Shown here: piece by piece, positions 33,148 to 49,112 of the stretch | How the letters are laid out: the number at the start of each line of letters is the position of its first letter | Numbering within the stretch: the stretch's first letter is position 1 | Assembly (NCBI RefSeq): GCF_001531445.1 | Contig: NZ_LQYA01000047.1 | Location: 139,497-203,496 of the forward strand | Reading direction: 5' to 3' | DNA: 64,000 nucleotides | Source: Sporosarcina koreensis | GTDB lineage: Bacteria > Bacillota > Bacilli > Bacillales_A > Planococcaceae | Position numbers and translations under genes: made by a program | The notes under the pieces: model-generated | The model's input: only the letters and a program-made list of their open reading frames with translations | Databases searched by the model: none | Told to the model about the DNA's origin: nothing

Positions 33148-33178
33148 GTCGCATTCACCTCCGCAATCCTTTTTGATC

Positions 33179-33300
33179 ATCTAGCTCCGGGCGCCAGAAG
33201 CTCGGGGTCGTAAGTCAAAGCTGCTATGTGGCAAAAAGCGCCACTTCGCATCTTCGCCTTACGCCCGTCGCCTCTAGGCAGGCGCCCTTCGCTTTTGTTT
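33179..33300 (+). repeat. Family-A structured interspersed repeat, copy 1
   Basis: About 120 bp opening CTAGCTCCGGGCGCC and closing GGCGCCCTTCGCTTTTG. Outer stem GGGCGCC (33189-33195) pairs with GGCGCCC (33281-33287); CGTAAG (33209-33214) pairs with CTTACG (33258-33263); GTGGC pairs with GCCAC at the tip. The copies at 48.87 and 48.99 kb have the same layout with changed but still paired bases. Confidence 0.8.
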
Positions 33301-33488
33301 TATCATAACAAAAAACAGGTCAAGAAACTATGATTGTCATCATAATGAAATATAAAAAATTAAATTATCTAAAAAGTAGGTAGAATCAGTATAAGTCAAC
33401 TGAATTATTTGAAATGACCTGAACGATATGAGATGCTACTATCTAGAAAGACGACCCGAATGTTGATTTCGATTCCGGATGAATGGAA

Positions 33489-33513
33489 GTTTTTAAAATC
33501 GAGATAAGGGTAT
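33489..33513 (+). promoter_or_regulatory. Sigma-B-type promoter
   Basis: GTTTTT (33489-33494), a 13-base spacer, and GGGTAT (33508-33513) match the sigma-B consensus GTTTAA-N12-14-GGGWAW. The gene it would drive starts 47 bases downstream. The rest of 33301-33488 is AT-rich and shows no gene. Confidence 0.6.
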
Positions 33514-33559
33514 ACTACGAGTATAATACGATTTTTAACGTAATGGAGGAATGATAGGT

Positions 33560-33904
33560 ATGGCACGTAAACGCGGAAATGGATTGCTTCTTGCTACGTT
33601 GGCTGCAGGTGCATACGCATATTTCAGCAAAAAAGAAAACCGTGACAAAGCGATGGTTGCGGTGAATAATATGAAAACGAAAGTCGATTCTTTTATACAA
33701 ACGCAAAAATTGAACCGTTCCGATGATACGAAAGCCGGTCATTCGGATCCATATGACTTGCAGGACAATAAAATGGTAAGTGAAGGCGCGCAAACAAGTG
33801 TTCATTATTACAACCAAGAAGTGGAAGACAAGTCCAAGGAATCGGAAGTGGACGGTCTCTACCATAAGAAAGAAGACCCGAGCCAAGCCCCGCAAAATCA
33901 ATGA
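33560..33904 (+). CDS. Putative sigma-B-dependent stress protein, YtxH-like N terminus
   Basis: A 114-residue protein with a short glycine/alanine-rich hydrophobic segment (GNGLLLATLAAGAYAYF) followed by a charged helical region KKENRDKAMVAVNNMKTKVDSF and a polar, poorly ordered tail. This resembles YtxH/YhaH-type general stress proteins, but the match is loose. The ATG at 33560 has GGAGG ten bases upstream; the ATG at 33551 is too close. The sigma-B-type promoter upstream agrees with a stress role. Function is unknown. Confidence 0.7.
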   Translation: MARKRGNGLLLATLAAGAYAYFSKKENRDKAMVAVNNMKTKVDSFIQTQKLNRSDDTKAGHSDPYDLQDNKMVSEGAQTSVHYYNQEVEDKSKESEVDGLYHKKEDPSQAPQNQ

Positions 33905-33962
33905 TAAAGAGATATTTCACTCAGTGGGGAATCTTCCACTGAGTGTTAGTTGAACCAATCGG

Positions 33963-34019
33963 GCATTAACTGGCGGTTTGCACTCCCACTTAGGTCGGCG
34001 TCTTACTGCCAGTAAATGC
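33963..34019 (+). other. Conserved-looking long hairpin upstream of yidC
   Basis: GCATTAACTGGCGG (33963-33976) pairs with CTGCCAGTAAATGC (34006-34019), a 14-bp stem with one mismatch and one wobble, around a 29-base loop. A smaller hairpin, CACTCAGTGG with CCACTGAGTG, lies just before it (33918-33945). It is followed by a terminator-like hairpin. It may be an RNA end-processing or leader structure. Confidence 0.45.
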
Positions 34020-34028
34020 GGGACAACT

Positions 34029-34054
34029 CGCTTCCATCACGGAGGCGTTTTTTT
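34029..34054 (+). terminator. Terminator upstream of yidC
   Basis: CGCTTCC (34029-34035) pairs with GGAGGCG (34041-34047), followed by seven T. It could end the upstream stress-gene transcript. Confidence 0.75.
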
Positions 34055-34096
34055 ATGGCCAATTTTCGATAAAAACTCGTAAATAACGAACATTAA

Positions 34097-34126
34097 TTGT
34101 AATTACACTGTGAATTGATGTATACT
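34097..34126 (+). promoter_or_regulatory. Sigma-A-type promoter of yidC
   Basis: TTGTAA (34097-34102), an 18-base spacer, and TATACT (34121-34126), with TG one base before the -10 box. The start codon is 34 bases downstream. Confidence 0.6.
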
Positions 34127-34159
34127 TTTCAGTAGTTTGAAATAGTGAAGGTGAATGTA

Positions 34160-34960
34160 TTGAAAAAGAAAATTGGTTTATTATCAATATTGGTAACCAC
34201 TGCCGTTTTCCTAAGTGGTTGTTCCGGAGTGCAGAACAAAGAAGGAACGTTCTATAATATTTTCGTCAAGCCAATGGAATGGCTGCTTCATTATCTTGGA
34301 GAAACATTCAACGGAAGCTACGGACTTGCAATCATCATCATCACCGTTGCCATCCGGTTGGTGCTTATGCCGCTTATGTTGAAAAACTATAAGTCGCAGC
34401 AAGAGATGAAAATCAAAATGGATGCTCTCCGTCCGGAAATGGAAGATATCCAAAAACGCTTAAAAGAAGCGAAAGAAAAGGAAAACAAAGAAGAGCAGAT
34501 GAAGCTTCAGCAGGAAATGATGGGCTTGTATTCCAAGCACGGCGTCAATCCGTTGAACATGGGCTGCCTTCCTTTGATCATCCAGATGCCGATTATCATG
34601 GGCCTCTATTTCGCAATCCTTTACGCTCCGCCGGAAGTGAAGGAGCATCAATTCCTTTGGTTCAATTTGGGCGAACCGGATAAGATCATGATGCTTGTCG
34701 CGGGTGCAGTTTACTTCGTCCAAGCGCGTGTATCATTGTGGACGATGCCTGAACAGCAAAAGCAGCAGATGAAGCTGTTCATCTATATGTCACCGATCAT
34801 GATCATGTTCATTTCATTCACGGTGATGGCGGCGCTTCCACTTTACTGGGCGGTCGGTGGGCTATTGCTCATTTTCCAAACATATTTGGGCCGGAAGTTC
34901 TACTACAAGGAAGTGCAGCAACCACTTCCAGAAACAAAGCCGGAAACAAAGAAAGATTGA
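34160..34960 (+). CDS. yidC: YidC/Oxa1 membrane protein insertase (lipoprotein type)
   Basis: A 266-residue insertase that helps fold membrane proteins. A lipoprotein signal peptide ends in FLSGC, so the mature protein begins at Cys. The five-helix core has IIITVAIRLVLMPLMLKN with the conserved hydrophilic-groove Arg, then a charged coiled loop, and PLIIQMPIIMGLYFAI. The TTG at 34160 follows GAAGGTG by six bases; the GTG at 34145 would lie before this site. No mifM-like ORF is seen upstream. Bacilli normally have two YidC paralogues; this one could be either. Confidence 0.93.
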   Translation: MKKKIGLLSILVTTAVFLSGCSGVQNKEGTFYNIFVKPMEWLLHYLGETFNGSYGLAIIIITVAIRLVLMPLMLKNYKSQQEMKIKMDALRPEMEDIQKRLKEAKEKENKEEQMKLQQEMMGLYSKHGVNPLNMGCLPLIIQMPIIMGLYFAILYAPPEVKEHQFLWFNLGEPDKIMMLVAGAVYFVQARVSLWTMPEQQKQQMKLFIYMSPIMIMFISFTVMAALPLYWAVGGLLLIFQTYLGRKFYYKEVQQPLPETKPETKKD

Positions 34961-34976
34961 ACAATGGCATATGGGA

Positions 34977-35004
34977 GGCTGGAGAGCAATCTCCGGCCTT
35001 TTTT
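34977..35004 (+). terminator. Terminator after yidC
   Basis: GGCTGGAGA (34977-34985) pairs with TCTCCGGCC (34990-34998) through one wobble, followed by six T. Confidence 0.88.
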
Positions 35005-35017
35005 GGAGGGAATTAAC

Positions 35018-35263
35018 ATGACTCAGAAGAAAGCAGGCGTCATCGGAATTGTTTTGTTGGCGATTGTGACGTTGTTTTTCGTCGTCAGAGGGAAGCTGGA
35101 CTATGCGATCTTGACGATGATGGCGCTTTTCACGTTGACAAACGCTTCCAGGGCGAAATCGTTCAAGGAGCAAGGGTTTGACAAGGAATCCCGGTGGATG
35201 CGCTATTTATCGATTCTATTTGCGCTTTCATTTGTCGTTGTCCTATTGCTTATCATTTTATAA
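35018..35263 (+). CDS. Hypothetical small membrane protein (81 residues)
   Basis: An 81-residue protein with three hydrophobic segments (GIVLLAIVTLFFVV, YAILTMMALFTL, and LFALSFVVVLLLIIL) and a basic loop between the second and third. The ATG at 35018 follows TGGAGGGAATTAAC, and the gene starts immediately after the yidC terminator, so it is read separately or by read-through. I do not recognise the family. Its position next to yidC is its only functional hint. Confidence 0.7.
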   Translation: MTQKKAGVIGIVLLAIVTLFFVVRGKLDYAILTMMALFTLTNASRAKSFKEQGFDKESRWMRYLSILFALSFVVVLLLIIL

Positions 35264-35294
35264 TAAAAAAATGTTCCCCGAATACGGAGAACAT
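35264..35294 (-). terminator. Terminator of the minus-strand MFS gene
   Basis: ATGTTC-C-CCG pairs with CGG-A-GAACAT, one mismatch, and on the minus strand is followed by a long T tract (plus-strand A tract at 35264-35270). Confidence 0.7.
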
Positions 35295-35302
35295 GGTACC
35301 TA

Positions 35303-36457
35303 TTAATAAGCCAACTTTTTACGCGTTGCAAGTATGATGAAAATGGCAGGGATCGAGCAAACGGTCATACCTAAAAATGCGGTACCCGGTGAGATTTCAT
35401 AGAGGAAACCGGCCGGAAATGTCAGGATGGCAGTGCTTAAACTCATGGCGAATGCGGCATAGAACCCTTGAGCTGCGGCGATCTGCGAATTTGGAAGCTT
35501 TTTCGAGATGTATTGGATAAATGCATAATGGGCAATTCCGAATGATGCCGCATGTAAAAGCTGTGTCGCGATGAAAACGGCAGCTGTCGGAAAAAGGAAG
35601 ACGAGCACCCATCGTATCGTCGACCCGATTGCTGCTATGAGGAACATTGTTGAAATCCGAACGTCTGATAATAAGCGATCCGCTTTAGCGAAAAAGAGGA
35701 TTTCGAAAAGAACCGCGATATTCAAAATGATGCCGATATAAAACCCGTTAACATTCAAATCATCGAGGAACAGGAAGCCGTAGTTGTAGTATGATGCATG
35801 GGCGCCTTGCAGCAGCACCGCAAGCACCATGATGATCGGGAATCCTTTTGTTGCAAACAACGTCTTCAATCCGGTTTTCCGGTTGCGTGGATCCTTCCTG
35901 TCTGGAATGCTTTGCAAAACGGCCGGCGCGGGCCGGGAATAAAAAATGACAGCTATCGCAAGCCCGGCAATCATCATATAGAGGATGGCCTGTTCATTCC
36001 AAACAGCAGTAGCAGCGCCGACGAGTAAGAGTGCAATCGTATACCCGATCGAACCGAACGATCGACTTTTGCCGTAATGGACATGCTCCTTCTGCATAAG
36101 GACGGATGCACCGCTTTCGACAGCCGGTAAGATGATTGGATAAACAGCGCTGAAAAGAACCGTTATGATGAACAATGCAATGAATGGCGACTCTGGAATG
36201 TAGAGGACGGCAAGGAGCAGCGACAGGACCGTCATCCATTTCATGACACGTACATATGACGTTCTTTCTGTCAAATATGGAAAGACGAGAAACGTGGAAA
36301 ACGACCGGGCAACCATCCCGGCGCCCATGACAATGCTGGCATCTTTCACGGACAACCCTTTTTCGATCGTCAACCAACCTGTCCAATAGGGGAGAAAAAT
36401 ACCCCATGTAAAAAAGAATGTAAAAAAACTAACAGAAAGCCAACGTTGGTTATTCAT
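35303..36457 (-). CDS. MFS transporter (HcaT/YwbF-like, MFS_1_like)
   Basis: A 384-residue carrier with 12 expected helices. It opens WLSVSFFTFFFTWGIFLPYWTGWL and carries GKSRSFGSIGYTIALLLVGA, typical of the NarK-unrelated HcaT/YwbF group whose members take up sugars or aromatic acids. GFPIIMVLAVLLQGAHASYYNYGF starts the second half. The ATG at 36457 is preferred over TTG 36472 because GAGG is seven bases upstream. It stands alone between terminators. The substrate is unknown. Confidence 0.82.
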   Translation of the reverse strand: MNNQRWLSVSFFTFFFTWGIFLPYWTGWLTIEKGLSVKDASIVMGAGMVARSFSTFLVFPYLTERTSYVRVMKWMTVLSLLLAVLYIPESPFIALFIITVLFSAVYPIILPAVESGASVLMQKEHVHYGKSRSFGSIGYTIALLLVGAATAVWNEQAILYMMIAGLAIAVIFYSRPAPAVLQSIPDRKDPRNRKTGLKTLFATKGFPIIMVLAVLLQGAHASYYNYGFLFLDDLNVNGFYIGIILNIAVLFEILFFAKADRLLSDVRISTMFLIAAIGSTIRWVLVFLFPTAAVFIATQLLHAASFGIAHYAFIQYISKKLPNSQIAAAQGFYAAFAMSLSTAILTFPAGFLYEISPGTAFLGMTVCSIPAIFIILATRKKLAY

Positions 36458-36597
36458 AAGTAATCCTCGCAATCATTCATTTACATATGTGAAAATAAAT
36501 GATAGCATACACGGACTTGAAAGAACATCGTCATACGGCGATTTTATGCATACTGAAAAAAGAGAGATACCTAGAGTAGAAGGAAGGCCAACAGAAG

Positions 36598-37563
36598 ATG
36601 AACCGGAAACGAAAATATAAAAGCGGGAAGAAATCGAATAAAGCATTGACGATCACATTGTTGCTGACGAGCTTGATCATGACAGCGATCGTCGTTTGGA
36701 TCGGCATGAATGACTGGGATCTAAATAAAACATTGAGACAAGCGGGCATTGGTGAAACAGAAGCACCTCCAGTGGAAGAGCAGGAAGTGGACGATGCGGA
36801 CGAGCCAGGAACAGTAGAAGAAGAACCTGAAGCGACGGAAGAAGAGACACCGTCTGTTGAAGAAGGAGCGGTTGAAGAACAGCCTCCTGCTGAAGAGGAA
36901 AAGACCGAAACGAAAGAGCCGGAGAAAAACGTCACGCCTACAAAACCGGCACAGAAAAATGATGAGAAGCCGAAAGTGACGACTAAACCGCCGGCAACTC
37001 CGAATAAAAGCGGCTATATCGAAGGCCAAGAACTACCGGATAAGCCGACCATTATTAACGGAATCCTTATCGCGAATAAAATATACCCGCTGCCAAGCAC
37101 ATACGCTCCGGGCGAAAGCAAAGAAGCAAGGGCGTCATTCGATGAGATGGCCGCCGAGGCGAAGCTTTCCGGATTCAATCTGACCGCATTTAGCACATAT
37201 CGCTCGTATGAATACCAAGTGTCATTGTACGACAGGTACGTTAAAAAGGACGGCGTGGAAGCTGCAGACCGCTATAGCGCGCGCCCGGGTTATTCCGAGC
37301 ACCAAACAGGGCTCGCGTTCGATATCGGGGAAGTGAACTACGAAAAGTATTGGGCCTCCTCCAAATTCGGGGAAACGGAAGCTGGTAAATGGGTAGCCGC
37401 CAATGCGTCCCGCTATGGCTTTATCCTCCGTTACCCGAAAGGTAAGGAAAGCATCACCGGCTACATGCATGAATCGTGGCATTTCCGCTATGTCGGAAAA
37501 GAAATTGCTGAAGAAATTTTTAAGCGCAATATTACGCTGGAAGAATATCTTGGTTTGAAATGA
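36598..37563 (+). CDS. M15-family D-alanyl-D-alanine carboxypeptidase, VanY/YodJ-like
   Basis: A 321-residue membrane-anchored metallopeptidase. After a basic start comes one hydrophobic helix (about 15-38), then an acidic Glu/Pro-rich linker of about 70 residues, then a VanY domain. Zinc ligands are in SARPGYSEHQTGLAFDIGEV (SxHxxGxAxD) and the catalytic Glu and last His in ESWHFRYVG. It trims the terminal D-Ala from peptidoglycan stem peptides outside the membrane. The long acidic linker could span the wall. A very strong terminator follows. Confidence 0.92.
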   Translation: MNRKRKYKSGKKSNKALTITLLLTSLIMTAIVVWIGMNDWDLNKTLRQAGIGETEAPPVEEQEVDDADEPGTVEEEPEATEEETPSVEEGAVEEQPPAEEEKTETKEPEKNVTPTKPAQKNDEKPKVTTKPPATPNKSGYIEGQELPDKPTIINGILIANKIYPLPSTYAPGESKEARASFDEMAAEAKLSGFNLTAFSTYRSYEYQVSLYDRYVKKDGVEAADRYSARPGYSEHQTGLAFDIGEVNYEKYWASSKFGETEAGKWVAANASRYGFILRYPKGKESITGYMHESWHFRYVGKEIAEEIFKRNITLEEYLGLK

Positions 37564-37607
37564 CAAAAAACTCCTGCATCCGGTAATTGGGATGCAGGAG
37601 TTTTTTT
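37564..37607. terminator. Bidirectional terminator
   Basis: AAAAAACTCCTGCATCC (37565-37581) pairs perfectly with GGATGCAGGAGTTTTTT (37589-37605), between convergent vanY-like and cls genes. Confidence 0.93.
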
Positions 37608-37614
37608 GATTTGC

Positions 37615-39066
37615 CTAAAGGATTGGTGAAAGCAACCTTGAAACCGATTCTTTTATTTTGATCCACCGTGTCCGTTCCATATACATTTCATACGTCAACT
37701 CCGTCGACAATTGCATATCCTGCTCGAACAGTTCGGCGAGTTCGTGGGACTTCTCGCGGTCATAAATAAATGCATTGATTTCAAAATTGAGCTTGAAGCT
37801 CCGCACGTCGATATTTGCAGTTCCGACGGTGGACAATTCATCATCTACGACAATCTGTTTTGAATGAATGAATCCATTTTCATAAATATACACTTTAGCG
37901 CCTGCCCTCAAGAGCTTTCCGACATTGGAATACGTCGCCCAATAGACAAACATATGGTCCGGCTTATTCGGGATCATGATGCGGACGTCCACCCCTGATA
38001 AGCATGCGATGCGCAAAGCATCAAGGAAGCTGACATCCGGGATGAAGTACGGCGTTTGGATATAAATATATTCCTTTGCCAGGAAAATCATCTTCAAATA
38101 GCCGTCTTTGATTTGCTCCCACTCAGCATCCGGACCGCTTGATACGATTTGCAGCCCGACGGACCCTTTCCGTGGAATTGCGGGAAAGTAACGCTCCGCG
38201 TATTCGATATCTTCCATTTCGGTCGCTTGATTCCAGTCAAGGATGAACCTTGTCTGAAGCGGATGAAGAGCACTTCCTTCAATACGGAGGTGCGTGTCGC
38301 GCCAATAGCCGAATCTTTTATCCAGCCCTAAGTATTCATCACCGACATTGAAGCCTCCGACATAGCCGATGCGACCGTCAATCACAACGATCTTCCGGTG
38401 GTTCCGATAATTGAGTCGGGGATTGATAAGCGGCAGGATGGCTGGGAAGAATGCTGCCACTTCACCCCCACACGCAATCAATTCCTTTAAATGCTTGATG
38501 CGAAGACCCCTCGAGCCGATATCGTCGAACAGCACCCGGACTTTCACGCCTTGCTTCGCCTTTTTGATAAGGACGTCGAGAATGCGGGTACCTAAAGAAT
38601 CCAGACGTAAAATATAGTATTGAAAATGGATATGGTCTTTAGCGTTTTCAAGATCTTTCAGCAAGGCATCGAATTTTGCCGCGCCGTCATTAAAAACTTG
38701 AACATCATTATCCTGTGTCAAAACAGCGTGGTTATTGCGAAGATGAAGGTAGATCATGTCTTTGTAATGCGCTGTGTCATCCAGTCTGAAATCGAATGTT
38801 CCTTTCTCGATTGATTCAATTTGGTAATCAATCAACGTCTCAATACCAATCCGATTTTTCCCTGCCCATCTGAACAAATGCTTTCGCCGTAGTTTTCTTC
38901 CGAACAATAGGTAGATGATAAAGCCAAATAAAGGGACGAAGAACAGAACGAGAAGCCATGCCCATGTTGCGGTAGGGTCTCTTCTTTCGAGGAAAATCAG
39001 CGCAATCGCAAGGAAAATGTTCAATATGAAAATGGATGTTATCGTAATCGTTATCAAACTGGCCAT
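37615..39066 (-). CDS. cls: Cardiolipin synthase
   Basis: A 483-residue phospholipase-D-family enzyme joining two phosphatidylglycerols to cardiolipin in the membrane. Two N-terminal helices (about 3-50) with WAWLLVLFFVPLFGFIIYLLFGR are followed by two HKD motifs: NHRKIVVIDGRIGYVGGFNVGDEYLG and HSKQIVVDDELSTVGTANIDVRS. Full length for Bacillales ClsA. The ATG at 39066 has AAGGAGGG eight bases upstream; longer frames do not. It is convergent with the VanY-like gene. Confidence 0.95.
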   Translation of the reverse strand: MASLITITITSIFILNIFLAIALIFLERRDPTATWAWLLVLFFVPLFGFIIYLLFGRKLRRKHLFRWAGKNRIGIETLIDYQIESIEKGTFDFRLDDTAHYKDMIYLHLRNNHAVLTQDNDVQVFNDGAAKFDALLKDLENAKDHIHFQYYILRLDSLGTRILDVLIKKAKQGVKVRVLFDDIGSRGLRIKHLKELIACGGEVAAFFPAILPLINPRLNYRNHRKIVVIDGRIGYVGGFNVGDEYLGLDKRFGYWRDTHLRIEGSALHPLQTRFILDWNQATEMEDIEYAERYFPAIPRKGSVGLQIVSSGPDAEWEQIKDGYLKMIFLAKEYIYIQTPYFIPDVSFLDALRIACLSGVDVRIMIPNKPDHMFVYWATYSNVGKLLRAGAKVYIYENGFIHSKQIVVDDELSTVGTANIDVRSFKLNFEINAFIYDREKSHELAELFEQDMQLSTELTYEMYMERTRWIKIKESVSRLLSPIL

Positions 39067-39278
39067 AGAAGCCCTCCTTAACTGATTGCTCACTATTAGT
39101 ATACCGAAAACCAACTGAAAAAGAAGGGAATATCATCCACAAGTGAGGATTACTGCGGCTGAGGAAACACTTTCATATAAAAGCATATGCTATTATACGT
39201 TAATCCTACTTGACTGATATGATTTAAGGGTATATAGTCTTTTTATAGTTTTTATTTATTCCTGAAGGGGGAAAAGAA

Positions 39279-40673
39279 GTGGATACAGTTTTACTGCTTG
39301 TAAATATAGTAGCTTTGTTGCTTTTAATAGGACTTCTATATACTATGCACCGGAAAAAGGTTTCGTTTTCCAAAAGGGTTTTTTCGGGTCTAGGACTTGG
39401 AATCCTGTTCGGTTTCATCCTCAATATCGCTTACGGAGCCGACTCGGAAGTGCTGGCGGAATCGGTCAGCTGGTTTAATATCGTAGGTACCGGCTATGTC
39501 AAGCTTCTTCAAATGATCGTCGTTCCGCTCGTTTTCATATCGATTTTAGGAGCGTTCACGAAAGTGACGATCGGTAAGAACTTCGGTAAGATGGCTGGGA
39601 TGATTTTAGGGATTCTTGTTGGTACAACTGCCATCGCTGCAGCCGTCGGAATTTCGGCATCATTGTTGTTCGGCCTGGACGCTTCTGAAATTGTCCAAGG
39701 CGAGGCGGAGACCGCACGTGGCGTTTCTTTAGAAGAGCGTTCCGCTGACATGGCCGGCAAGGCATTGCCGGATCAAATTCTCGACTTATTGCCTGCGAAT
39801 CCTTTTCTCGACTTCACGGGAGCGCGTCCGACATCGACAATCGGTGTTGTCATCTTCGCGGCGTTCCTTGGCTTTGCCTATTTGGCACTAACAAGACGTG
39901 ATGAAGAGAACGCGAATTTGGTGAAGAAGGGGATTGACGCCCTTTATTCATTGATCATGGGCGTTGTACGGATCGTGTTGCGCTTGACGCCTTATGGGAT
40001 TTTGGCGATCATCGCAAGGACTGTGGCAACATCCGATTTTGCGGCGATTTATAGCTTAGGAAAATTCGTCCTTGCTTCGTATGCCGCGTTGCTCGTCATG
40101 TTCCTGATTCACTTGATCATCATTACGGTTTCCGGATTGAACCCGATCACGTATGTGAAGAAGACAGCGGAAGCTTTGCTGTTCGCTTTCTCTTCAAGAT
40201 CAAGTGCGGGTACTTTACCACTTAACATCAAAACACAAACCGATCGTCTCGGAGTTCCGGACGGCGTTGCAAATTTTGCAGGTTCTTTTGGATTGTCGAT
40301 CGGGCAGAACGGCTGTGCAGGCGTATATCCAGCGATGCTCGCTGTCATGATTGCACCGACTGTCGGTCAAAATCCATTGGAGCCGACATTCCTGCTCACG
40401 TTGATTGCGATTGTTGCGATCAGTTCATTCGGAGTTGCAGGAGTCGGCGGCGGAGCTACATTCGCAGCGATTCTCGTCCTGTCTGCCTTGAATCTCCCAG
40501 TCGCACTGGCTGGTTTGTTAATCTCGGTTGAACCGCTGATCGATATGGGCCGGACGGCGTTGAACGTGAGTGGTTCCATGACTGCAGGTGTGGCGACTGC
40601 GCGGGTTAGCGGCGAGTTGGATAAGGATGTCTATAATGGTTCAATGGAGCATCAGTCGATTGAAGCTTCATGA
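39279..40673 (+). CDS. tcyP: L-cystine symporter, TcyP type
   Basis: A 464-residue dicarboxylate/amino-acid:cation symporter (DAACS family). It closely resembles B. subtilis TcyP: ILFGFILNIAYG, GYVKLLQMIVVPLVFISILGAFTK, FSSRSSAGTLPLNIKTQ (the serine-rich hairpin) and GQNGCAGVYPAML. It takes up L-cystine driven by Na+ or H+. The start is GTG after GAAGGGGGAAAAGAA. The gap 39067-39278 holds no gene; I saw no S-box. A bidirectional terminator follows. Confidence 0.93.
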   Translation: MDTVLLLVNIVALLLLIGLLYTMHRKKVSFSKRVFSGLGLGILFGFILNIAYGADSEVLAESVSWFNIVGTGYVKLLQMIVVPLVFISILGAFTKVTIGKNFGKMAGMILGILVGTTAIAAAVGISASLLFGLDASEIVQGEAETARGVSLEERSADMAGKALPDQILDLLPANPFLDFTGARPTSTIGVVIFAAFLGFAYLALTRRDEENANLVKKGIDALYSLIMGVVRIVLRLTPYGILAIIARTVATSDFAAIYSLGKFVLASYAALLVMFLIHLIIITVSGLNPITYVKKTAEALLFAFSSRSSAGTLPLNIKTQTDRLGVPDGVANFAGSFGLSIGQNGCAGVYPAMLAVMIAPTVGQNPLEPTFLLTLIAIVAISSFGVAGVGGGATFAAILVLSALNLPVALAGLLISVEPLIDMGRTALNVSGSMTAGVATARVSGELDKDVYNGSMEHQSIEAS

Positions 40674-40676
40674 TAG

Positions 40677-42091: not shown

Positions 42092-42097
42092 TTTTGC

Positions 42098-42126: not shown

Positions 42127-42128
42127 TT

Positions 42129-42145
42129 GTTTAATTAAATTAAAC
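42129..42145. promoter_or_regulatory. Perfect palindromic operator 2
   Basis: GTTTAAT-TAA-ATTAAAC, 17 bp, identical arms to operator 1 and 54 bp downstream of it. It covers the expected transcription start. Confidence 0.75.
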
Positions 42146-42166
42146 TTATTGAATGGAGTGATTATT

Positions 42167-43468
42167 TTGAGTGAAGCAATGAAATTGAAAAGAGCGACAT
42201 ACCATCTTTGGACGTTTACGATCAGTAAGCTTATCGCATCGTTCGGCGCACAAGTATATGCGTTTGCAATCAGTTTCTATATTTTGCAGATGACGGGATC
42301 CGCTACGAATTTCGCGACGAATCTTATTTGTAGCATTTTGCCGCGCGCAATTATGGCGCCATTTGCAGGGTATGTTGCAGATCGATATTCAAGAAAGACG
42401 ATCGTCATTAGCGCGCAGATTGCAACAACGCTTGCAATTGGCGGATTGCTGACAGTAAGCATCGTTTCGGGCTTGTCGCTTCCCGCGATTTATACGACGA
42501 CGGTCATTTTATCGATTACGTCGACATTTTCCGGAGTGGCATTCACGTCTTCAATCACGGGACTTGTGGATGAGAAACGCATACAAAAAGCGATGTCGAT
42601 GAATCAAATGTCGATTTCGTTTGCAGCAATTGCAAGCCCTGCAGTAGGCGGATTGCTGTACGGCACGGTGTCCATGCCGGTATTCCTAATGATTTACATG
42701 GCGGCATCTACTACCGCAGTCATATTGGAATCAACGATGAACTTCAAATTGTTTGCGAAACGAAAAGAAGTTGTAGAAGGCGAGCCGAAGGAAACGATGC
42801 TCCAAAGCATGAAAGCTGGTTTCTCCTATTTGAAGCTGCAATCGGTCTTAATGACAATCATCTGGATTTCATTAGTCATTAACTTTTTGTTCGGCGCATT
42901 CCAAGTCGGCTATTCTTTCATCCTCATCGAAAAGATGAAAATGGCGTCTACACATTTTGGATTTACGGAAGGTGCCCACGCTGTAGGAATGGTGGTCATG
43001 TCCATTTATTTATCAGTACGTAAAGAGTTGAAGTATCCATTATTAGTTGGCAAGTGGGGGATTGTATCGATGGGGATTGTCATGGGGGCTGTAGCGTTGC
43101 CATTGCTCCTGCAGATGCCATACAACGGGCTATTCGCTTTCTACACAGTGCTTATGTTCAGTTTTGGCGTCCTTGTCATTTTTGTCAACACGCCGATCCA
43201 AGTAATGATGCAAAAGATGATCGACGACGATTATAAAGGCCGTGTCTTTTCCATTTTGGAAACGATGGCAATCGCACTCATGCCGCTTGGGATGGTATTG
43301 TTCGGATTCCTCTATGACGTCTTGCCGGCACAGTGGATTCTGCTCACATCAAGTGCATTCCTCATCCTCATCGTCTTGATCATGGCGCGTCCATCCGTCG
43401 TACGGAAAGCGCATCCGGAGCTCGATAAAACGAAAATCGTAAAAACGGAAGTAGTGCAAGAACAATAG
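42167..43468 (+). CDS. MFS exporter, EntS/MFS_3-like
   Basis: A 433-residue 12-helix carrier. ILPRAIMAPFAGYVADRYSRKTIVI is MFS motif A in the EntS/MFS_3 form, and FVNTPIQVMMQKMIDDDYKGRVFSILETM is typical of the same group, which exports siderophores, macrolides or peptides. The TTG at 42167 is chosen because GGAGTG lies six bases upstream; TTG 42149 has none. The promoter is enclosed by two perfect palindromes, so a dedicated repressor is likely. The substrate is unknown. Confidence 0.83.
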   Translation: MSEAMKLKRATYHLWTFTISKLIASFGAQVYAFAISFYILQMTGSATNFATNLICSILPRAIMAPFAGYVADRYSRKTIVISAQIATTLAIGGLLTVSIVSGLSLPAIYTTTVILSITSTFSGVAFTSSITGLVDEKRIQKAMSMNQMSISFAAIASPAVGGLLYGTVSMPVFLMIYMAASTTAVILESTMNFKLFAKRKEVVEGEPKETMLQSMKAGFSYLKLQSVLMTIIWISLVINFLFGAFQVGYSFILIEKMKMASTHFGFTEGAHAVGMVVMSIYLSVRKELKYPLLVGKWGIVSMGIVMGAVALPLLLQMPYNGLFAFYTVLMFSFGVLVIFVNTPIQVMMQKMIDDDYKGRVFSILETMAIALMPLGMVLFGFLYDVLPAQWILLTSSAFLILIVLIMARPSVVRKAHPELDKTKIVKTEVVQEQ

Positions 43469-43574
43469 AATGGTATGCATTTGGAAACAAAAACATGGAG
43501 AATGAAACTATTTTCCTAGCGGCTCGTATACTTATATGTATCGTTGACAGAAAAGTAGGAACAGGGGGAAGATT

Positions 43575-44966
43575 ATGCTGAACAAAGCGCTTATTGAAGA
43601 TGTATTGCAAGCTGCACTTGAAACGGGCGGCGATTTTTCGGAAGTGTTCGTTGAGGATCGGTACACGAATCATATGGTCCTTCAAAATTCCAGATTGGAG
43701 AAAAATTTATCCGGACGCGATTTTGGAGTAGGAATTAGGGTGTTCCACGGATTGCAGAGTGTCTACGCTTACACGAACGATTTCTCGAGGGAGGGCCTTT
43801 TAAAAGCTGCACGTACAGCTGCAAAAGCGATTCAAGGGAAAATGGATGGAGAAACGACAGTTATTCCTCTTATAAAAGAATCGATCTCGACACTTCATCC
43901 GATACAAATCATGCCTCATGAAGCAGCCAAATCCCGAAAACTCGCAGTCATGCGAAATGCGAATGACATCATTCGAAATTATGATCCGGAAATCGTGCAA
44001 GCAATCATTAACTTGATTGATGAAGAGCAAAATGTCCTCATTGCCAATTCGGAAGGGAAATTCGTGGAGGACCAGCGGGTAAGAAGCAGGATGTCTATGG
44101 TATCCATTGCTTCAAATGGGGCGGATATGCAGACAGGTTTTTATGGTCCTGGCGCCTACCAAGGTTTTGAGTTTATCGAAAACCTCGACCTCGATCATTA
44201 TGCAAAGGAATCTGCGCGGATTGCCAAAACGATGCTCCATGCTGATCCGGCTCCGAGCGGGAAATTCCCTGTCGTTATCGACAATGAGTTCGGAGGTGTC
44301 ATTTTCCATGAAGCTTGCGGCCATAGCCTTGAAGCATCATCAGTTGCAAAAAACGCTTCTGTTTTTGCAAATAAATTGGGCGAGAAAGTAGCGTCAGACC
44401 TTGTTACATACATTGACGATGGGACGCTTGAAAACGAATGGGGCTCGATCAATATCGATGACGAAGGTGAAAAATCCCGTAAAAACGTGCTTATTGAAGA
44501 TGGCATTCTGAAAGGATATATGATCGATAAATTGAACGGTAGACGGATGGAAATGGAGTCCACTGGCTCAAGCCGCAGGCAATCTTACAGATTCGCTCCG
44601 ACATCCCGGATGACGAATACGTACATCGCTCCTGGAAAATCCACGCCTGAAGAGATCATAGCCGACACGGAATACGGCATTTACGCGAAGTACATGGGCG
44701 GCGGTTCGGTCAATCCTGGAACGGGTGATTTCAACTTTGCTGTCAATGAGGCGTATGTAGTCAAAAACGGGAAAATCGATAGACCAATCCGTGGTGCGAC
44801 ATTGATTGGGAACGGGGCGAAAACGATTCTGGATATCGATCGCGTCGGCAATAATTTAGGCCACGGAGCTGGAATGTGCGGCGCGTCCAGCGGCAGTTTG
44901 CCAGTGAATGTCGGGCAACCGATGGTGCGTGTTAGTGAAATCACGGTCGGCGGAAAGGAGGCATAA
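43575..44966 (+). CDS. tldD: TldD metalloprotease subunit
   Basis: A 463-residue TldD-type peptidase. The zinc motif HEACGH (H245, E246, H250) sits in GGVIFHEACGHSLEAS. Together with TldE it forms a hetero-dimeric protease that trims unfolded peptides; in E. coli it matures microcin B17 and degrades CcdA. LINGARM-like NGRRMEMESTGSSRRQSYRFAPTSRMTNTYI and GMCGASSGSLPVNVGQP are family blocks. It starts ATG after GGGGGAAGATT and is separated from tldE by three bases. No peptide precursor gene is adjacent. Confidence 0.93.
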   Translation: MLNKALIEDVLQAALETGGDFSEVFVEDRYTNHMVLQNSRLEKNLSGRDFGVGIRVFHGLQSVYAYTNDFSREGLLKAARTAAKAIQGKMDGETTVIPLIKESISTLHPIQIMPHEAAKSRKLAVMRNANDIIRNYDPEIVQAIINLIDEEQNVLIANSEGKFVEDQRVRSRMSMVSIASNGADMQTGFYGPGAYQGFEFIENLDLDHYAKESARIAKTMLHADPAPSGKFPVVIDNEFGGVIFHEACGHSLEASSVAKNASVFANKLGEKVASDLVTYIDDGTLENEWGSINIDDEGEKSRKNVLIEDGILKGYMIDKLNGRRMEMESTGSSRRQSYRFAPTSRMTNTYIAPGKSTPEEIIADTEYGIYAKYMGGGSVNPGTGDFNFAVNEAYVVKNGKIDRPIRGATLIGNGAKTILDIDRVGNNLGHGAGMCGASSGSLPVNVGQPMVRVSEITVGGKEA

Positions 44967-44969
44967 CCA

Positions 44970-46322
44970 ATGAGCATTGAACAATTAAAAGAGAGGCTGT
45001 TTGCTGAAGGTGAAAATACAGGTTTTACTGATCTTGAACTCTACTACGAGAAAAAAGAGAGTCTAACGATCGGGTTATACGAAGGGGAAGTGGATAAATA
45101 CGATTTTTCTGATGTTCAAGGAGCTTCTGTGAGAGGGCTGTATAACGGGAAAACGGGATACGCCTATACAGAAAAATTCGATGAGGATTCAGTTTCATTC
45201 CTGCTGAAAAACGCAGTGGAAAACGCGGAATTGATTGAAAATGAACCGGAAGAATTATTCACAGGAAAAGCGGAGTATGAAGAAATCGAGTTTTATAGTC
45301 CGGAATTGGATGCTGTCAAGCCGGAAGAGATGATTCAATTCTTGCAGGAAGTGGAGAAGAAAATCCTGGCGTATGATCCACGGGTAAAGAAGGTCACAAC
45401 ATCCCAAATGCAGAATCAGAAATCGGAAAAAGGCCTTTTTCATGACAAAGGGTTGGAGCTCAAGGAAGCAAATAACTTTTTACTATTTTACGTATCGATT
45501 CTCGTCCAGGAGAACGACGAATTGAAATCTGGATTTGTTTTTAGAATCACTAAAGATTTTAATGAGCTTGATGCAGACACGATCGTAAAAGAGGTTGTAG
45601 AACAAGGTGTAAGCATGTTGGGAGAAAGAAATTATCCGAATAAAAAATACCCTGTCGTATTGAAAAATGAAGCAGCTGCTTCTCTATTGTCAACATTCAC
45701 ATCCTCTTTCTCGGCTCAGGCTGTACAAGATAGCCGGTCTCGCCTTCAAGGGAAGTTGGGTGAGAAGATTGCGGCGGAACATGTGAATCTGATCGATAAC
45801 CCGTTTCTTCCAACTGGGATTCAAAGTGCAACATTCGATTCGGAAGGGGTTCCGACGCGAAAGCTTAACATCGTCGAGGAAGGGCATTTACAAACCTATT
45901 TCCACAACTTGAAAACGGCGAAAAAAGATGGCGTGGAGACGACAGGCCATGCACACCGCGGGTCTTATCGGGGTTCTGTCGAAGTGAGTCCGTCCAATTT
46001 CTATATTGAGCCTGCCAATCAAACGGTGGAACAGCTATACGCTGAAATTGAGGAAGGCATCATCATTACTGATTTAGCAGGTTTGCACTCGGGAGCGGAT
46101 CCGATTTCAGGCGACTTTTCATTGGCGGCTGACGGATATTATGTAAAGGACGGCAAGGTTGTCGGTCCGACAAAGCAGATGACCGTAGCCGGAAACTTCT
46201 TTGAAATGCTCCAGGACATTGAAGAAATCGGTAGTGACCTGATATTTTCACCGATGAGTTTCAATGGGTATATCGGTTCTCCGTCGCTTAAAATAAAGGG
46301 CTTGGCCATCACGATCGATTAA
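44970..46322 (+). CDS. tldE: TldE/PmbA partner subunit
   Basis: A 450-residue PmbA/TldE protein with the TldD-like fold but no HExxxH, as expected for the inactive partner. Blocks include GASVRGLYNGKTGYAYTEKF near the N terminus, FDSEGVPTRKLNIVEEGHLQTYFHNLKTA, and GLHSGADPISGDFSLAADGYYV. It starts three bases after tldD with AAAGGAGGC upstream, so both are translated from one message in the stoichiometry needed for a dimer. A terminator follows. Confidence 0.93.
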   Translation: MSIEQLKERLFAEGENTGFTDLELYYEKKESLTIGLYEGEVDKYDFSDVQGASVRGLYNGKTGYAYTEKFDEDSVSFLLKNAVENAELIENEPEELFTGKAEYEEIEFYSPELDAVKPEEMIQFLQEVEKKILAYDPRVKKVTTSQMQNQKSEKGLFHDKGLELKEANNFLLFYVSILVQENDELKSGFVFRITKDFNELDADTIVKEVVEQGVSMLGERNYPNKKYPVVLKNEAAASLLSTFTSSFSAQAVQDSRSRLQGKLGEKIAAEHVNLIDNPFLPTGIQSATFDSEGVPTRKLNIVEEGHLQTYFHNLKTAKKDGVETTGHAHRGSYRGSVEVSPSNFYIEPANQTVEQLYAEIEEGIIITDLAGLHSGADPISGDFSLAADGYYVKDGKVVGPTKQMTVAGNFFEMLQDIEEIGSDLIFSPMSFNGYIGSPSLKIKGLAITID

Positions 46323-46347
46323 CAGCTGGCTAATTTTGAATAAGAAA

Positions 46348-46390
46348 GGGCATAACATATTTGCACGAATATGTTGTGTCTCTTTTTTTA
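46348..46390 (+). terminator. Terminator after tldDE
   Basis: CATAACATATT (46351-46361) pairs with AATATGTTGTG (46368-46378) through one wobble, followed by a T tract. Confidence 0.85.
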
Positions 46391-46511
46391 TGCTACCGAG
46401 TTTTATACGCCTCAAGACTTAGCTAAAATTATATCTCAGGTCCATTACCATGAATTCGCCTGTACTATACGATGGATTCAGTAATTATGCGAATTGTTAG
46501 GATGTGAGAAT

Positions 46512-46769
46512 GTGAAGAAAAGATGGCTGTTTTGGTGGATTGCTAATGCTTTTTGGATTGTCGTTTTAGCAGTAGGTTCAGCTTTCATTTGGCTAAGGGA
46601 AGTCGATGGTGCGGGTGTTATTCAAACGCCTGAAGCAAAATTAGTAGCATTTATAGTTTTATTAATCGCATTTATAATCCCGGCAATACTTCAAGTTGTA
46701 TGGCTAATTGTTAATCTTGTAATTACTAGTAATAAAAAAATGGAATATCGTAATGAATTATCAAGTTAA
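46512..46769 (+). CDS. Hypothetical two-helix membrane protein, AT-rich
   Basis: An 85-residue protein with two hydrophobic segments (LFWWIANAFWIVVLAVGSAFIWL and LVAFIVLLIAFIIPAILQVVWLIVNLVI) joined by a short polar loop, and a charged C-terminal tail. The base composition is clearly more AT-rich than its neighbours. The start is taken as GTG 46512; the site GGATGTGAGA is only moderate. I do not recognise the family. It may be a recent arrival. Confidence 0.55.
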   Translation: MKKRWLFWWIANAFWIVVLAVGSAFIWLREVDGAGVIQTPEAKLVAFIVLLIAFIIPAILQVVWLIVNLVITSNKKMEYRNELSS

Positions 46770-46836
46770 AGTATCATACGTATTCTGAGAGTAAGAATCG
46801 ACTTTCGCAAGTGGGGACGCGAAAAAGTGAATAATC

Positions 46837-46888
46837 AAGGGCATACCATATGGTTTGTAACCAACAAGGTATGCCCTTAACTTTTTTT
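46837..46888. terminator. Bidirectional terminator
   Basis: AAGGGCATACC (46837-46847) pairs perfectly with GGTATGCCCTT (46868-46878), followed by TT-rich sequence. It lies between convergent genes. Confidence 0.85.
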
Positions 46889-46894
46889 GCCTAC

Positions 46895-48055
46895 TTACGC
46901 CGAACGCAATGTCTTCGATGACTTGCGATACATGAAGATGAAGACGATCGAAATGACAGCAAGTGCTGCAGAAATATAGTAGATTTCGCCTGTCATCCTT
47001 GTGAATAACCATGTGAATAAAAGCGGCCCGATGATGCGTCCCATATTGTCCATCGAGTACGTCATGCCGGCTGCTGTGCCGTACTTCCCGCCGGATTCCT
47101 TCGACGTCAATGAAACGAGAACCGTCCGTGCAAGCGCGTTTCCTGCGGTGAAGACGCTGAGCGCCACGCCCGCCCAGAAAAGGCTGCCTGTGAATGGGAT
47201 TAAAATCAGACCGAAGGCGGTGATGACCTGCCCGCCCAGAATCCATTTCGTCTCTGAACCGTTTTTCACACGACGCACGACACCGCCTTGAATAGCGGCA
47301 TCAACAAATCCACTTGCCATGAACAAATAGCCGACTTGCTTAGGTGTAATTTCGATTGCGGAAATTTGGAACAGCTGGAATGTCGATTCAATTCCCGCCA
47401 AAATGAGCGTCACCATGAAGGAGAGCAAAAACAGATTCCGAATCCGGTATTGCCAAAGCATGATGCCGCCTTTCGGGAGCAGCGCACGTTTATTTGCCTC
47501 GCCGAGACGTTCCGGCTCTTTTAGAATCGCGCCAGCATAGATGACCAATAGCAATGTCAATACACCTGAAGCGATGAATGGCAATTGCAAGTTGGAATGA
47601 CCGAGCACACCGCCGATTGCCGGTCCGAAAATGAATCCGAGTCCGATCGACATGCCGAGCAAGCCCATATATTTATTCCGATTTTCCTCCGTCGTCATAT
47701 CCCCGACAAATCCGGTAACTGCCGTGTATAATGCACCGGAGAAAATTCCGCCGACAACACGTGAAAGGTACAGCATTGTAAGGTTATCAATGAAGAATGC
47801 GAACAGGAAGAAGCTCAAGCTGAAGCCGATGAGGCCGACGATGATCAACTTCTTGCGGCCTGTCCGATCGGATAATGCACCCCATAGCGGAGCGGTGAAA
47901 AATGATGCAAGAGAATAAACAGTCAGCAATCCACCGACGTGGATTTCGGAAAGATCCTGCTGCACAATCACTTCTGGCAAAATCGGAATGATAATGCCGA
48001 AACCGAGATAGACAAAAAATTGAACGGACATTAAGAGAAGAATTGATTTTTTCAT
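46895..48055 (-). CDS. MFS drug exporter (DHA1 type, YttB/TetA-like)
   Basis: A 386-residue 12-helix carrier. Motif A reads LWGALSDRTGRKKLIIVG and motif C region SIGLGFIFGPAIGGVLG, both typical of drug:H+ antiporters with 12 helices. The N terminus MSVQFFVYLGFGIIIPILPEV fits the TetA/YttB/NorA cluster. Efflux of small toxic compounds is the family role; the substrate is unknown. It is preceded by a spaced inverted repeat at 48082-48141 that may be its operator. Confidence 0.85.
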   Translation of the reverse strand: MKKSILLLMSVQFFVYLGFGIIIPILPEVIVQQDLSEIHVGGLLTVYSLASFFTAPLWGALSDRTGRKKLIIVGLIGFSLSFFLFAFFIDNLTMLYLSRVVGGIFSGALYTAVTGFVGDMTTEENRNKYMGLLGMSIGLGFIFGPAIGGVLGHSNLQLPFIASGVLTLLLVIYAGAILKEPERLGEANKRALLPKGGIMLWQYRIRNLFLLSFMVTLILAGIESTFQLFQISAIEITPKQVGYLFMASGFVDAAIQGGVVRRVKNGSETKWILGGQVITAFGLILIPFTGSLFWAGVALSVFTAGNALARTVLVSLTSKESGGKYGTAAGMTYSMDNMGRIIGPLLFTWLFTRMTGEIYYISAALAVISIVFIFMYRKSSKTLRSA

Positions 48056-48081
48056 GTATGTACCTGCTTTCAGTAGACATC

Positions 48082-48141
48082 ATTACGACCATTTTACTCT
48101 GCGTGTCGCATAGTGACAAAGGAAAAGGTGTTGGTCGTAAT
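48082..48141. promoter_or_regulatory. Spaced inverted repeat upstream of the MFS gene
   Basis: ATTACGACCA (48082-48091) and TGGTCGTAAT (48132-48141) are perfect inverted copies 40 bases apart. A smaller near-palindrome, TGTCGCATAGTGACA, sits between them. It could be a looped or dimer-of-dimers operator. The rest of 48056-48329 shows no gene. Confidence 0.45.
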
Positions 48142-48329
48142 CTTTTATTTGTCTTTATGTATAAAGCATTTACAAAAGGCGAACAATTTGTAACATAATT
48201 GAAAGATTTAAAAGTGGACAGGAGTGGTATGATGTGTATAGATGAAAATTGGTATGATTTTCATTTCAATGATGAAACTTTCCAATGTAAGATACGTCAA
48301 CAACATATAGAAAGGTCGAGGTGGAAAAG

Positions 48330-48470
48330 ATGGCGAAAGAAAAGGTTGATTTGAAAAAAATCATCTCCAACTTGGCGAAGTTGGGTGTTTCGGCAACAGC
48401 AACGAAATCCCGTATGGAAATGCTGAAAGCCCTCGCGCCACCTGCAAATGACCCGCAAATACAGTCATAA
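48330..48470 (+). CDS. Putative 46-residue protein
   Basis: A 46-residue frame with GAGGTGGAAAAG upstream and a strong terminator three bases after its stop. It opens MAKEKVDLKKIISNLAKLG and ends ALAPPANDPQIQS: a basic amphipathic helix, then a proline-containing tail. There is no membrane segment. I do not recognise a named family. The combination of start signal, coding-like third positions and terminator supports translation. Confidence 0.65.
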   Translation: MAKEKVDLKKIISNLAKLGVSATATKSRMEMLKALAPPANDPQIQS

Positions 48471-48476
48471 CGAAAA

Positions 48477-48514
48477 ACCTCCCGCAATCGTGCATGCATG
48501 CGGGAGGTTTTTTT
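48477..48514 (+). terminator. Terminator after the 46-residue gene
   Basis: ACCTCCCGCA (48477-48486) pairs perfectly with TGCGGGAGGT (48499-48508), followed by seven T. Confidence 0.9.
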
Positions 48515-48600
48515 ATGCGCTTTTGCAGCGTGTTATGCGCGAATAAAACGGTTTATGCGCATTTCTAGCCATTTATGCGTGAATAAATCAATTTTTGGGT
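48514..48600. repeat. 20-bp periodic repeat array (TTTATGCGC type)
   Basis: TATGCG recurs at 48514, 48534, 48554 and 48574 with exactly 20-bp spacing, and a degenerate unit at 48594. The first unit overlaps the T tract of the terminator. Confidence 0.85.
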
Positions 48601-48615
48601 TTTGCGCCTAATCTA

Positions 48616-48836
48616 GGTGATTGAAGTGGAAGCCGGCGACTCCTGCGAACACCGTCACGAAGAACGGTGTTTGTGAGCAAAGGCAAAGTGTTGCGAACAG
48701 GAATGCCAAAACGGATGCCTTAATTTCTGCAAAAAGCGCAGAAATACGGCAAATCGAACTCTTCGTTGTTCGATTGGCTGAAGCCATGCCCGCGGAAAGC
48801 GTCCGGCTGGAACGTAAATCACCAGTTTTCGTTATT
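48616..48836 (+). repeat. Composite structured repeat with nested modules B and C
   Basis: Opens AAGCCGGCGACTCCTGCG and closes GCCCGCGGAAAGCGTCCGGCT, the ends pairing through AGCCGG/CCGGCT. The pattern resembles a GC-rich element I recall between Bacillus genes. Inside are AACACCGT-CACGAAGA-ACGGTGTT (module C, also in the 31.5-kb element with changed paired bases) and the double-hairpin module B at 48716-48778. No coding potential is supported. Confidence 0.65.
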
Positions 48837-48869
48837 GTCTAGCTTCGGGCGCCCTCCGCTTTTCGTTAT
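48836..48869 (+). repeat. Family-A element reduced to its ends
   Basis: TCTAGCTTCGGGCGCC is joined directly to CTCCGCTTTTCG, so only the two outer ends of a family-A element remain, as if the centre had been deleted. Confidence 0.55.
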
Positions 48870-48992
48870 TGTCCAGCTCCAACGACCAGGTCCTCGGGTC
48901 ATAAGCCGTATCGGCTGTGCGGCAAAAAGCGCTGCTTCGCCGATTCGTCTTATGTCTGTCGGACCTAACCGGTCGTTTCCGCTTTTCTATAT
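48870..48992 (+). repeat. Family-A structured interspersed repeat, copy 2
   Basis: Same layout as copies 1 and 3, but the outer stem is AACGACC (48881-48887) with GGTCGTT (48971-48977), and the next stem AGGTCC (48888-48893) with GGACCT (48961-48966). CATAAG pairs with CTTATG, ATCGGC with GCCGAT, and GCGGC with GCTGC at the tip. It is adjacent to copy 3. Confidence 0.8.
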
Positions 48993-49112
48993 TGTCTAGC
49001 TCCGGGCGCCAGATGCTCGGGTCATAAGTCAAACCTGCTGTGTGGCAAAGAGCGCCACTTCGCATTTTCGCCTTATGCCTGTCGCATCTAGACAGGCGCC
49101 CTCCGCTTTTCT
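48993..49112 (+). repeat. Family-A structured interspersed repeat, copy 3
   Basis: Outer stem GGGCGCC (49004-49010) pairs with GGCGCCC (49095-49101); AGATGC (49011-49016) pairs with GCATCT (49084-49089); CATAAG with CTTATG; GTGGC with GCCAC at the tip. Its right end runs into the stop codon of the RodA-type gene ending at 49111. Confidence 0.8.

Follow-up and report, generated by a model that had tools for sequence, protein, structure and literature searches.

A stretch of 64,000 nucleotides (nt) from Sporosarcina koreensis (GCF_001531445.1, contig NZ_LQYA01000047.1, positions 139,497 to 203,496; hereafter the window) carries several copies of an intergenic repeat built of nested stems, and raises the question of whether such a repeat is an RNA kept by its host for its fold or a piece of mobile DNA. 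We consider, with a probability of roughly 0.6, that the element is a short non-coding, non-autonomous mobile hairpin repeat of ~118–120 nt which lies next to gene ends in Sporosarcina. Behind this reading stand lineage-specific insertion, direct repeats at some insertion sites, conservation led by structure, nesting of other modules, a characteristic placement, and gain and loss of whole units, all of which we observed. Numbers beginning with G and L are our handles for genomes and loci.

Copies of the element in the window

A sequence-only reading of the window had placed three copies at 33179–33300, 48870–48992 and 48993–49112, together with a composite family member at 31539–31770. A covariance model built from 22 full copies of the window's genome finds the three copies, all on the plus strand, and also matches the core of the composite (31596–31699, minus strand, 41.3 bits). 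The element features are:

33179–33296, plus strand: full element copy (covariance-model match, 128.8 bits), an insertion of the window's lineage within an AT-rich palindrome and T-run, just upstream of a minus-strand gene
48871–48986, plus strand: full element copy and first member of a tandem pair, with AACGACC/GGTCGTT as its outer stem (model match, 114.6 bits)
48994–49110, plus strand: full element copy and second member of the tandem pair, with GGGCGCC/GGCGCCC as its outer stem (model match, 132.5 bits)
48838–48864, plus strand: what is left of a third copy, reduced to its foot and outer stem (TCTAGCTTCGGGCGCCCTCCGCTTTTC) by loss of the interior (direct reading; repeat family D3)
31537–31769, minus strand: composite, one element (outer stem GGGTGGC/GCCACCC) holding two other nested hairpin modules (ends by reading)

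The gene beside the 33179 copy is presumably GNAT-like, a name given from inspection only. The CGCTTTT end of the 48994 copy abuts the stop codon of a minus-strand open reading frame (ORF; 49111–50307, from the ORF list and gene context), which by inspection only we take to be rodA. The stems quoted for the copies in the sequence-only reading are present, apart from the second stem of the 33179 copy, which fits neither of the two forms given and reads AGAAGC/GCCTCT with one mismatch. Compared with dinucleotide shuffles, the folding energies of the three copies have z-scores of -3.8, -6.1 and -4.4 on the plus strand and -6.2, -4.8 and -4.8 on the minus strand. The earlier statement that similar sequences lie between genes of Bacillus relatives, with no named family, holds as far as tested: the element has no Rfam match over the window at gathering scores or over 31000–50000 at E ≤ 1, and literature searches by phrase and by family sequence strings, which mostly did not cover subscription papers, found no paper on the family. 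The mobility, the nesting and the link to terminators and stop codons go beyond what that reading had seen.

Filled and empty sites in related genomes

Sequence orthologous to the window was obtained from seven relatives (60 kb each from G033, G032, G036, G433 and G023, 47 kb from G446 and 40 kb from G431). At the site orthologous to that of the 33179 copy, G032, G033, G036, G433 and G446 have near-identical flanks but no element; these empty sites read as a single short AT palindrome, and the window is ~126 nt longer. G433 carries a tandem pair between GTTTATT repeats at a site that is empty in the window, G032, G033 and G036, while in G033 a copy lies between two TGAAATAAT repeats, with G032 empty there and flanks again near-identical. 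Two copies in G023 lie between CGTTATT repeats after the rodA-labelled gene. The direct repeats are thus about 7 (G433), 7 (G023) and 9 (G033) nt long. The composite site is empty in G032, G033, G433, G446 and G431 and holds a plain element in G036. The element is mobile, and related genomes differ in the copies they carry.

Several observations weigh against frequent or regular insertion, and to that extent against our reading. The empty site in G032 reads TGAAATGAAATAAT, so part of the G033 repeat may predate the insertion, and even at good sites the length of the direct repeat is uncertain by a few bases. The 33179 copy shares just ATCAT across its ends, and no direct repeat is general to a set of 40 isolated copies (longest shared string 3.8 on average, compared with 3.59 ± 0.14), so that a universal direct repeat was rejected. 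At least eight copies of the window's genome are found at orthologous places in relatives, at 81–89% identity, which indicates that jumps are infrequent. In the stretches compared between G027 and G438, two nearly identical genomes, which were chosen for the copies they hold, no element was seen to have entered a previously unoccupied site. Element insertion is therefore real but infrequent, and the duplication is irregular.

Distribution of the family

As a blastn query, one copy gave 47 matches within its own genome, itself included. The model search of that genome, in which 150 of 1232 candidates were scored, returned 81 rows at E ≤ 0.01; subtraction of 14 reverse-strand echoes of palindromic copies leaves ~67 places, a few of them weak. 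Within Sporosarcina, 35 of the 37 genomes examined (the window's genome included) have matches, and copies per genome range from 0 (G011, G026) to at least 60. Among genomes of other families in the same survey, one of 24 gave a single weak match, and a strict pattern scan of named genomes returned 15 stretches, every one from Sporosarcina. A wider sample of Bacilli, searched with strict filters and nine candidates scored per genome, gave a match at E ≤ 1e-4 in 59 of 398 genomes and 32 of 145 genera. Spread via plasmids or phages was considered and rejected, as neither collection had a match to a single-copy query, although records close to the window's own genome may have been left out of them.

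Ends, flanks and placement

The ends of the element are fixed, (G/A)TCYAGC at one and GCTTTT plus one base at the other, while the stems between them vary freely as long as they pair. In 124 distinct flank pairs with recognised ends, the second base to the left of TCYAG covaries with the base to the right of GCTTTT (T..C in 60, C..G in 44 and A..T in 14, together 118 of the 124). The base immediately to the left tends to be G for T..C flanks and A or G for C..G flanks, and 37 of the 39 copies isolated on both sides fit the full flank types. There is no covariation further out, which sets the ends of the element, adding about one pair to the foot and giving the size of ~118–120 nt. The tip loop could pair with the 3' end (AAAAGCG and CGCTTTT), but the loop varies.

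Of 94 non-tandem left ends, 26 have a terminator-like hairpin (folding free energy, dG, ≤ -6) with a T-run immediately to their left, compared with 8 of 113 right ends (p 1e-4). Where the ORF is on the minus strand, the right end falls within -10 to 15 nt of its stop in 13 of 28 cases; the corresponding figure for plus-strand ORFs, on the left, is 3 of 33 (p 0.001; this count uses a simple ORF rule and 56 of 112 model rows, echoes and further array units having been dropped). Ten of 88 copies have TTATT no more than 10 nt from the right end, compared with none of 88 further away; TTTAT is found near the right end in just five of 88, compared with one, and the majority right flank reads (C/G)TTTATT. 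At the rodA-labelled and G033 sites the direct repeat spans the stop codon, so that the gene end is retained. Orientation along the chromosome, judged by eye on the G438 and G023 rows alone, shows a suggestive bias in one and none in the other.

Copies also adjoin what we take, by reading, to be 23S rRNA 3' ends (L127–L133 in G241, and L072, L084, L089 and L091), and those at the G241 loci are nearly identical to one another. Recent transposition in G241, where four copies beside the recognised 23S 3' ends are identical, was considered as a source of this identity and rejected, since concerted evolution explains it.

It could be proposed that the element is an RNA useful to the host at gene 3' ends, acting in mRNA stability, processing or termination, and that its mobility is incidental. 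The fold is maintained by selection (below), the minus strand is the mRNA sense at the adjoining stop codons and is also the strand that folds better, and at least eight copies have been retained at orthologous sites, all of which would suit such a role. However, copy number varies from 0 to at least 60 among congeneric species, the ORFs flanking copies differ in length and orientation, insertions are lineage-specific, and copies occur as well in long arrays, in nested composites and beside the 23S 3' ends. We therefore think a primary host function unlikely.

Compensatory change in the stems

The sequence-only reading had noted that changes on one arm of the stems are matched on the other, and had taken the structure to be under selection in RNA or in single-stranded DNA. 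The observation holds up over many copies, and the interpretation is supported. When 22 full copies are aligned by sequence, both sides of 16 of the 31 predicted pairs vary while pairing is retained; this alignment does not lean towards structure, as the pooled model-fitted alignments do. The pooled set was reduced from 262 matches to 203 without overlapping echoes and then to 172 unique full copies, in which 6002 of 6830 cells are Watson-Crick, 248 are G.U, 244 are A.C and 336 are other combinations, with three or four Watson-Crick types present in 27 of 40 pairs.

The 163 copies with differences among the 80 paired columns were placed on a tree made from these columns, on which we inferred 290 replacements of one Watson-Crick pair by another over all pairs, compared with single-sided changes of 72 to G.U, 122 to A.C and 118 to other mismatches. 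Covariation was assessed with a tree-based null: nine of the 40 pairs exceed all 8400 null values and 13 exceed its 99.9% point, and 25 of 40 lie above the 99th percentile of observed unpaired column pairs. The remaining pairs fall short of these marks, and many of them are nearly invariant. Compensatory change in the stems is real, and these counts support the view that structure, rather than sequence, is held by selection.

The same paired changes might be produced by correction of one arm from the other, through template switching in a quasi-palindrome, with no selection on the fold. The excess of the double replacements over every single-sided class and the rarity of wobble intermediates on the plus strand are what such a process would leave. 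It should, however, also erase the mismatches that face each other in the internal loop of the foot, where the three facing positions are Watson-Crick in just 6, 36 and 9 of 114 copies, as well as the one-sided bulge of 4–5 nt between outer and second stem, which is kept across the 22 aligned copies; nor are the mismatch types symmetric between strands. We regard arm-to-arm correction as very improbable. Because the facing bases of the foot loop stay mismatched in most copies, simple repair likewise fails as an explanation of the stems, and so does simple inverted duplication, which the sequence-only reading had named as one result that would count against it. The other such result, a lack of significant paired changes in a test on many copies, is contradicted by the counts above.

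The folding strand

The choice left between RNA and single-stranded DNA can be narrowed to one strand. Among inferred events, G.U on the minus strand (A.C on the plus strand) arises 99–101 times, compared with 40 times for G.U on the plus strand, a ratio of about 2.5 (p < 1e-6, given independent events); this count leaves out six of the 40 pairs (0, 1, 16, 17, 18 and 27) as fixed or doubtful, and with all 40 pairs the counts are 122 and 72. The minus strand has the lower folding energy in 129 of 166 copies. Raw counts at unpaired sites (G>A 128, C>T 136, T>C 116, A>G 109) show no matching bias; when corrected for base content the unpaired rates are uneven, with G>A exceeding C>T as at paired sites and T>C below A>G, unlike paired sites. 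Taken together, these results moderately favour folding of the minus strand (AAAAGCG...CTAGAC), in the form of RNA or of single-stranded DNA.

Candidate mobilising systems

As a miniature inverted-repeat transposable element (MITE) of a DDE transposon, the element would be expected to be non-coding and present in dozens of copies with short duplications, as it is, with direct repeats of ~7–9 nt at some sites. But it has no terminal inverted repeat of fixed sequence: its ends, TCYAGC and AAAAGC read inward, are alike just in AGC/GCT, and the outer stem varies. The length of the duplication does not appear to be constant either, and we give this origin very little weight.

A second candidate is the repetitive extragenic palindrome (REP) and REPIN type of element, moved by a REP-associated tyrosine (Y1) transposase (RAYT). 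The element shares with these its hairpin form and its position adjoining terminators, and a Y1 domain was found in 46 of 61 genus genomes, often within an ORF of ~200 amino acids (aa) that by reading we take to be RAYT-like. But no Y1 match was obtained in the genome of the window, a draft of 99.4% completeness, which yet carries the 33179 insertion that is absent from five relatives. Of 20 fetched loci with a Y1 gene of the ~200-aa type, screened with the element's model alone, 19 have no element match within ~3 kb and the remaining one has a match ~4 kb away; four IS200-type loci have none. The ends, by reading, lack a GTAG/CGTC tag, and the element is three to six times the length of a REP, so that mobilisation by a RAYT appears scarcely credible. 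Many Sporosarcina genomes hold a ~200-aa Y1 gene with no element nearby (L181–L200).

Movement as a retroelement resembling a short interspersed element (SINE), by a group II intron or another reverse transcriptase, would agree with the fold of the minus strand as in a transcript, with the irregular duplication and with sites past terminators, which group IIC introns also prefer, but is barely tenable given that G023 (listed as 83% complete), G028, G029, G031 and G436 have many copies and no match to the reverse transcriptase domain RVT_1 at E ≤ 1e-10, and that poly-A or intron-like ends are lacking by reading. This domain is present in 39 of the 61 genomes at that threshold. G035 and G444 stand out with 15 and 10 RVT_1 matches, which are probably group II introns. 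Both a Y1 transposase and a reverse transcriptase were rejected as required partners, since genomes with copies exist without each, and G031 has 43 copies with matches to neither domain; neither enzyme is needed in the same genome today, though either may have played a part in the past.

Tandem arrays and nested modules

Tandem arrays comprise up to seven units, separated by spacers of 5–8 nt. In many arrays the spacer varies little or not at all from unit to unit, and other loci have other spacers; some arrays mix units and spacers. Between G027 and G438, in the same stretches chosen for the copies they hold, 11 of 25 insertions or deletions of at least 15 nt are, by reading, whole units or composites gained or lost. 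At L157 (G436) tandem arrays flank the rodA-labelled gene, with seven model matches on each side.

Other hairpin modules are found within element copies or beside them. Those in the window are:

31682–31742, minus strand: copy of module X inside the composite (by blastn with module X, G000:C3:171174-171238; inverted-repeat listing)
31561–31613, plus strand: module Z, nested in the composite (75% complementary to 48647–48699)
60136–60265, plus strand: Bacillaceae-1 unit with module X (60175–60237) in its loop (RF01690, 43.2 bits; X match G000:C3:199671-199733)
60304–60370, plus strand: Bacillaceae-1 unit, equivalent to module Y (RF01690, 71.8 bits)

Module X has 41 matches in its own genome, 12 of which are in or beside an element copy by coordinate reading. 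Module Y is nested between element stems at L017, L019, L023 and L027 and matches Rfam family RF01690, as do both Bacillaceae-1 units of the window, at or above the gathering score. In G446 the 60136–60265 unit is present without module X, its loop uninterrupted. RF01690 was found in 24 of 31 genus genomes searched, with 31 matches in the window's genome, 113 in G009 and 86 in G002, and this high copy number in Sporosarcina calls into question the reading of Bacillaceae-1 as an ordinary RNA gene. On the strand opposite the Rfam model at 60304–60370, both Bacillaceae-1 hairpin loops show an AGGA core, which resembles the GGA loops of CsrA sites.

A possible mechanism

Three further results have to be set against a mobile element recognised on one strand. 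The strand argument assumes that the inferred events are independent, and unpaired sites have uneven rates too; the left flank has no excess of TTATT or TTTAT (three and two of 50, compared with one and one); and searches for Y1 and RVT_1 domains in 61 genomes yielded no candidate mobilising enzyme.

We nevertheless take the following course, which belongs to the reading given at the outset, to be more likely than not. The minus strand (5'-AAAAGCG...GCTAGAC-3') folds into a long hairpin with conserved internal loops, and something, most likely a trans-acting protein, would read that fold and move or copy the element. Insertion would be directed to stop codons or to the distal side of terminators, at sites that are rich in T and resemble (C/G)TTTATT, and would leave short direct repeats of about 7–9 nt. 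The end of the element is itself terminator-like, a GC-rich hairpin followed by TTTT, and may hence be a target of the same kind; self-targeting of this sort, with duplication of units, would explain tandem arrays with a fixed spacer of 5–8 nt. Other hairpin modules enter the loops of the element and may then travel along with it. We infer both the recognition of the folded minus strand by a protein and the travel of composites as units.

A bolder proposal, which we hold to be possible with the odds against it, is that the signal for mobility is the fold of one strand instead of any sequence: the stems would be free to take whatever sequence pairs, just the short foot, the loops and the bulge being fixed, and a putative protein would read the folded strand and insert it past terminators and stop codons. 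The same machinery would then also spread Bacillaceae-1 and the other modules.

If this is true, a class of supposed non-coding RNAs of the Bacilli would be mobile DNA, and a structured repeat present in about one in seven of the sampled Bacilli genomes (59/398), with no Rfam match, would be a mobile element recognised by its shape. In Sporosarcina, Bacillaceae-1 does behave as a high-copy module found inside such elements. Covariation, the usual mark of a functional RNA, can then come from mobile DNA and should be read with caution. The family offers a natural library of many compensated variants for finding what recognises the fold, and the G033/G032 insertion and the G027/G438 unit changes make the process testable in culture.

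Comparison with known repeats

The nearest described kind are bcr1 and its relatives (bcr2–bcr18) of the Bacillus cereus group, MITE-like mobile repeats with a TTTAT motif that are stated to be specific to that group; the likeness is one of description. Our element is likewise mobile, as the filled and empty sites of related genomes show, but its family is spread over 32 of the 145 Bacilli genera sampled, and its duplicated sites centre on TTATT. REP and REPIN repeats with RAYT genes are also palindromic extragenic hairpins, but are built on a palindrome of 20–40 nt with a GTAG/CGTC tag and a linked Y1 gene, whereas the element has ~118–120 nt and TCYAGC/GCTTTT ends, with no such gene linked. 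Given its bcr-like behaviour, its lack of the fixed inverted ends of a MITE and its lack of the linked gene and tag of REP/RAYT systems, we class the family among the small non-autonomous bacterial mobile repeats. It stands out among them in that structure governs its conservation across many genera, and in that it hosts nested modules, one of which belongs to a catalogued RNA family.

Repeated stem-loops have been described in other Bacillus relatives, such as the 74-bp Bhal-1 of B. halodurans (Cozzuto et al. 2008, PMC2267715), and the likeness to these families is one of kind. Yeast mitochondrial GC clusters and the repetitive hairpin elements of sponges are short mobile intergenic palindromes like ours (PMC4478555, PMC2800124), but belong to different organisms, and no common descent is suggested. 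Bacillaceae-1 RNA (RF01690), listed as a candidate RNA in PMC2864571, and the element family are both dispersed structured repeats of the same genomes; the nested module Y matches RF01690, whereas the base element has no Rfam match.

Other repeats beside the element

One further repeat family lies next to the tandem pair of the window:

48620–48830, plus strand: repeat family C with modules Z and X (X at 48716–48784), left of the tandem pair (direct reading; relatives at other sites)

At the same sites, namely 12554 and 35265 of the relatives, some species have the family C repeat (GTTGATTGAAGCGGAAGGCGGCGACTCC...) and others lack it. There is also a short TTTATGCG-type repeat, found at ~48500–48610 of the window and at L148–L152 and L155, beside the rodA-labelled gene, in numbers that vary between species, and at L156 (G450) a long array of a CCGCGCTCAAGAAT-type repeat takes its place.

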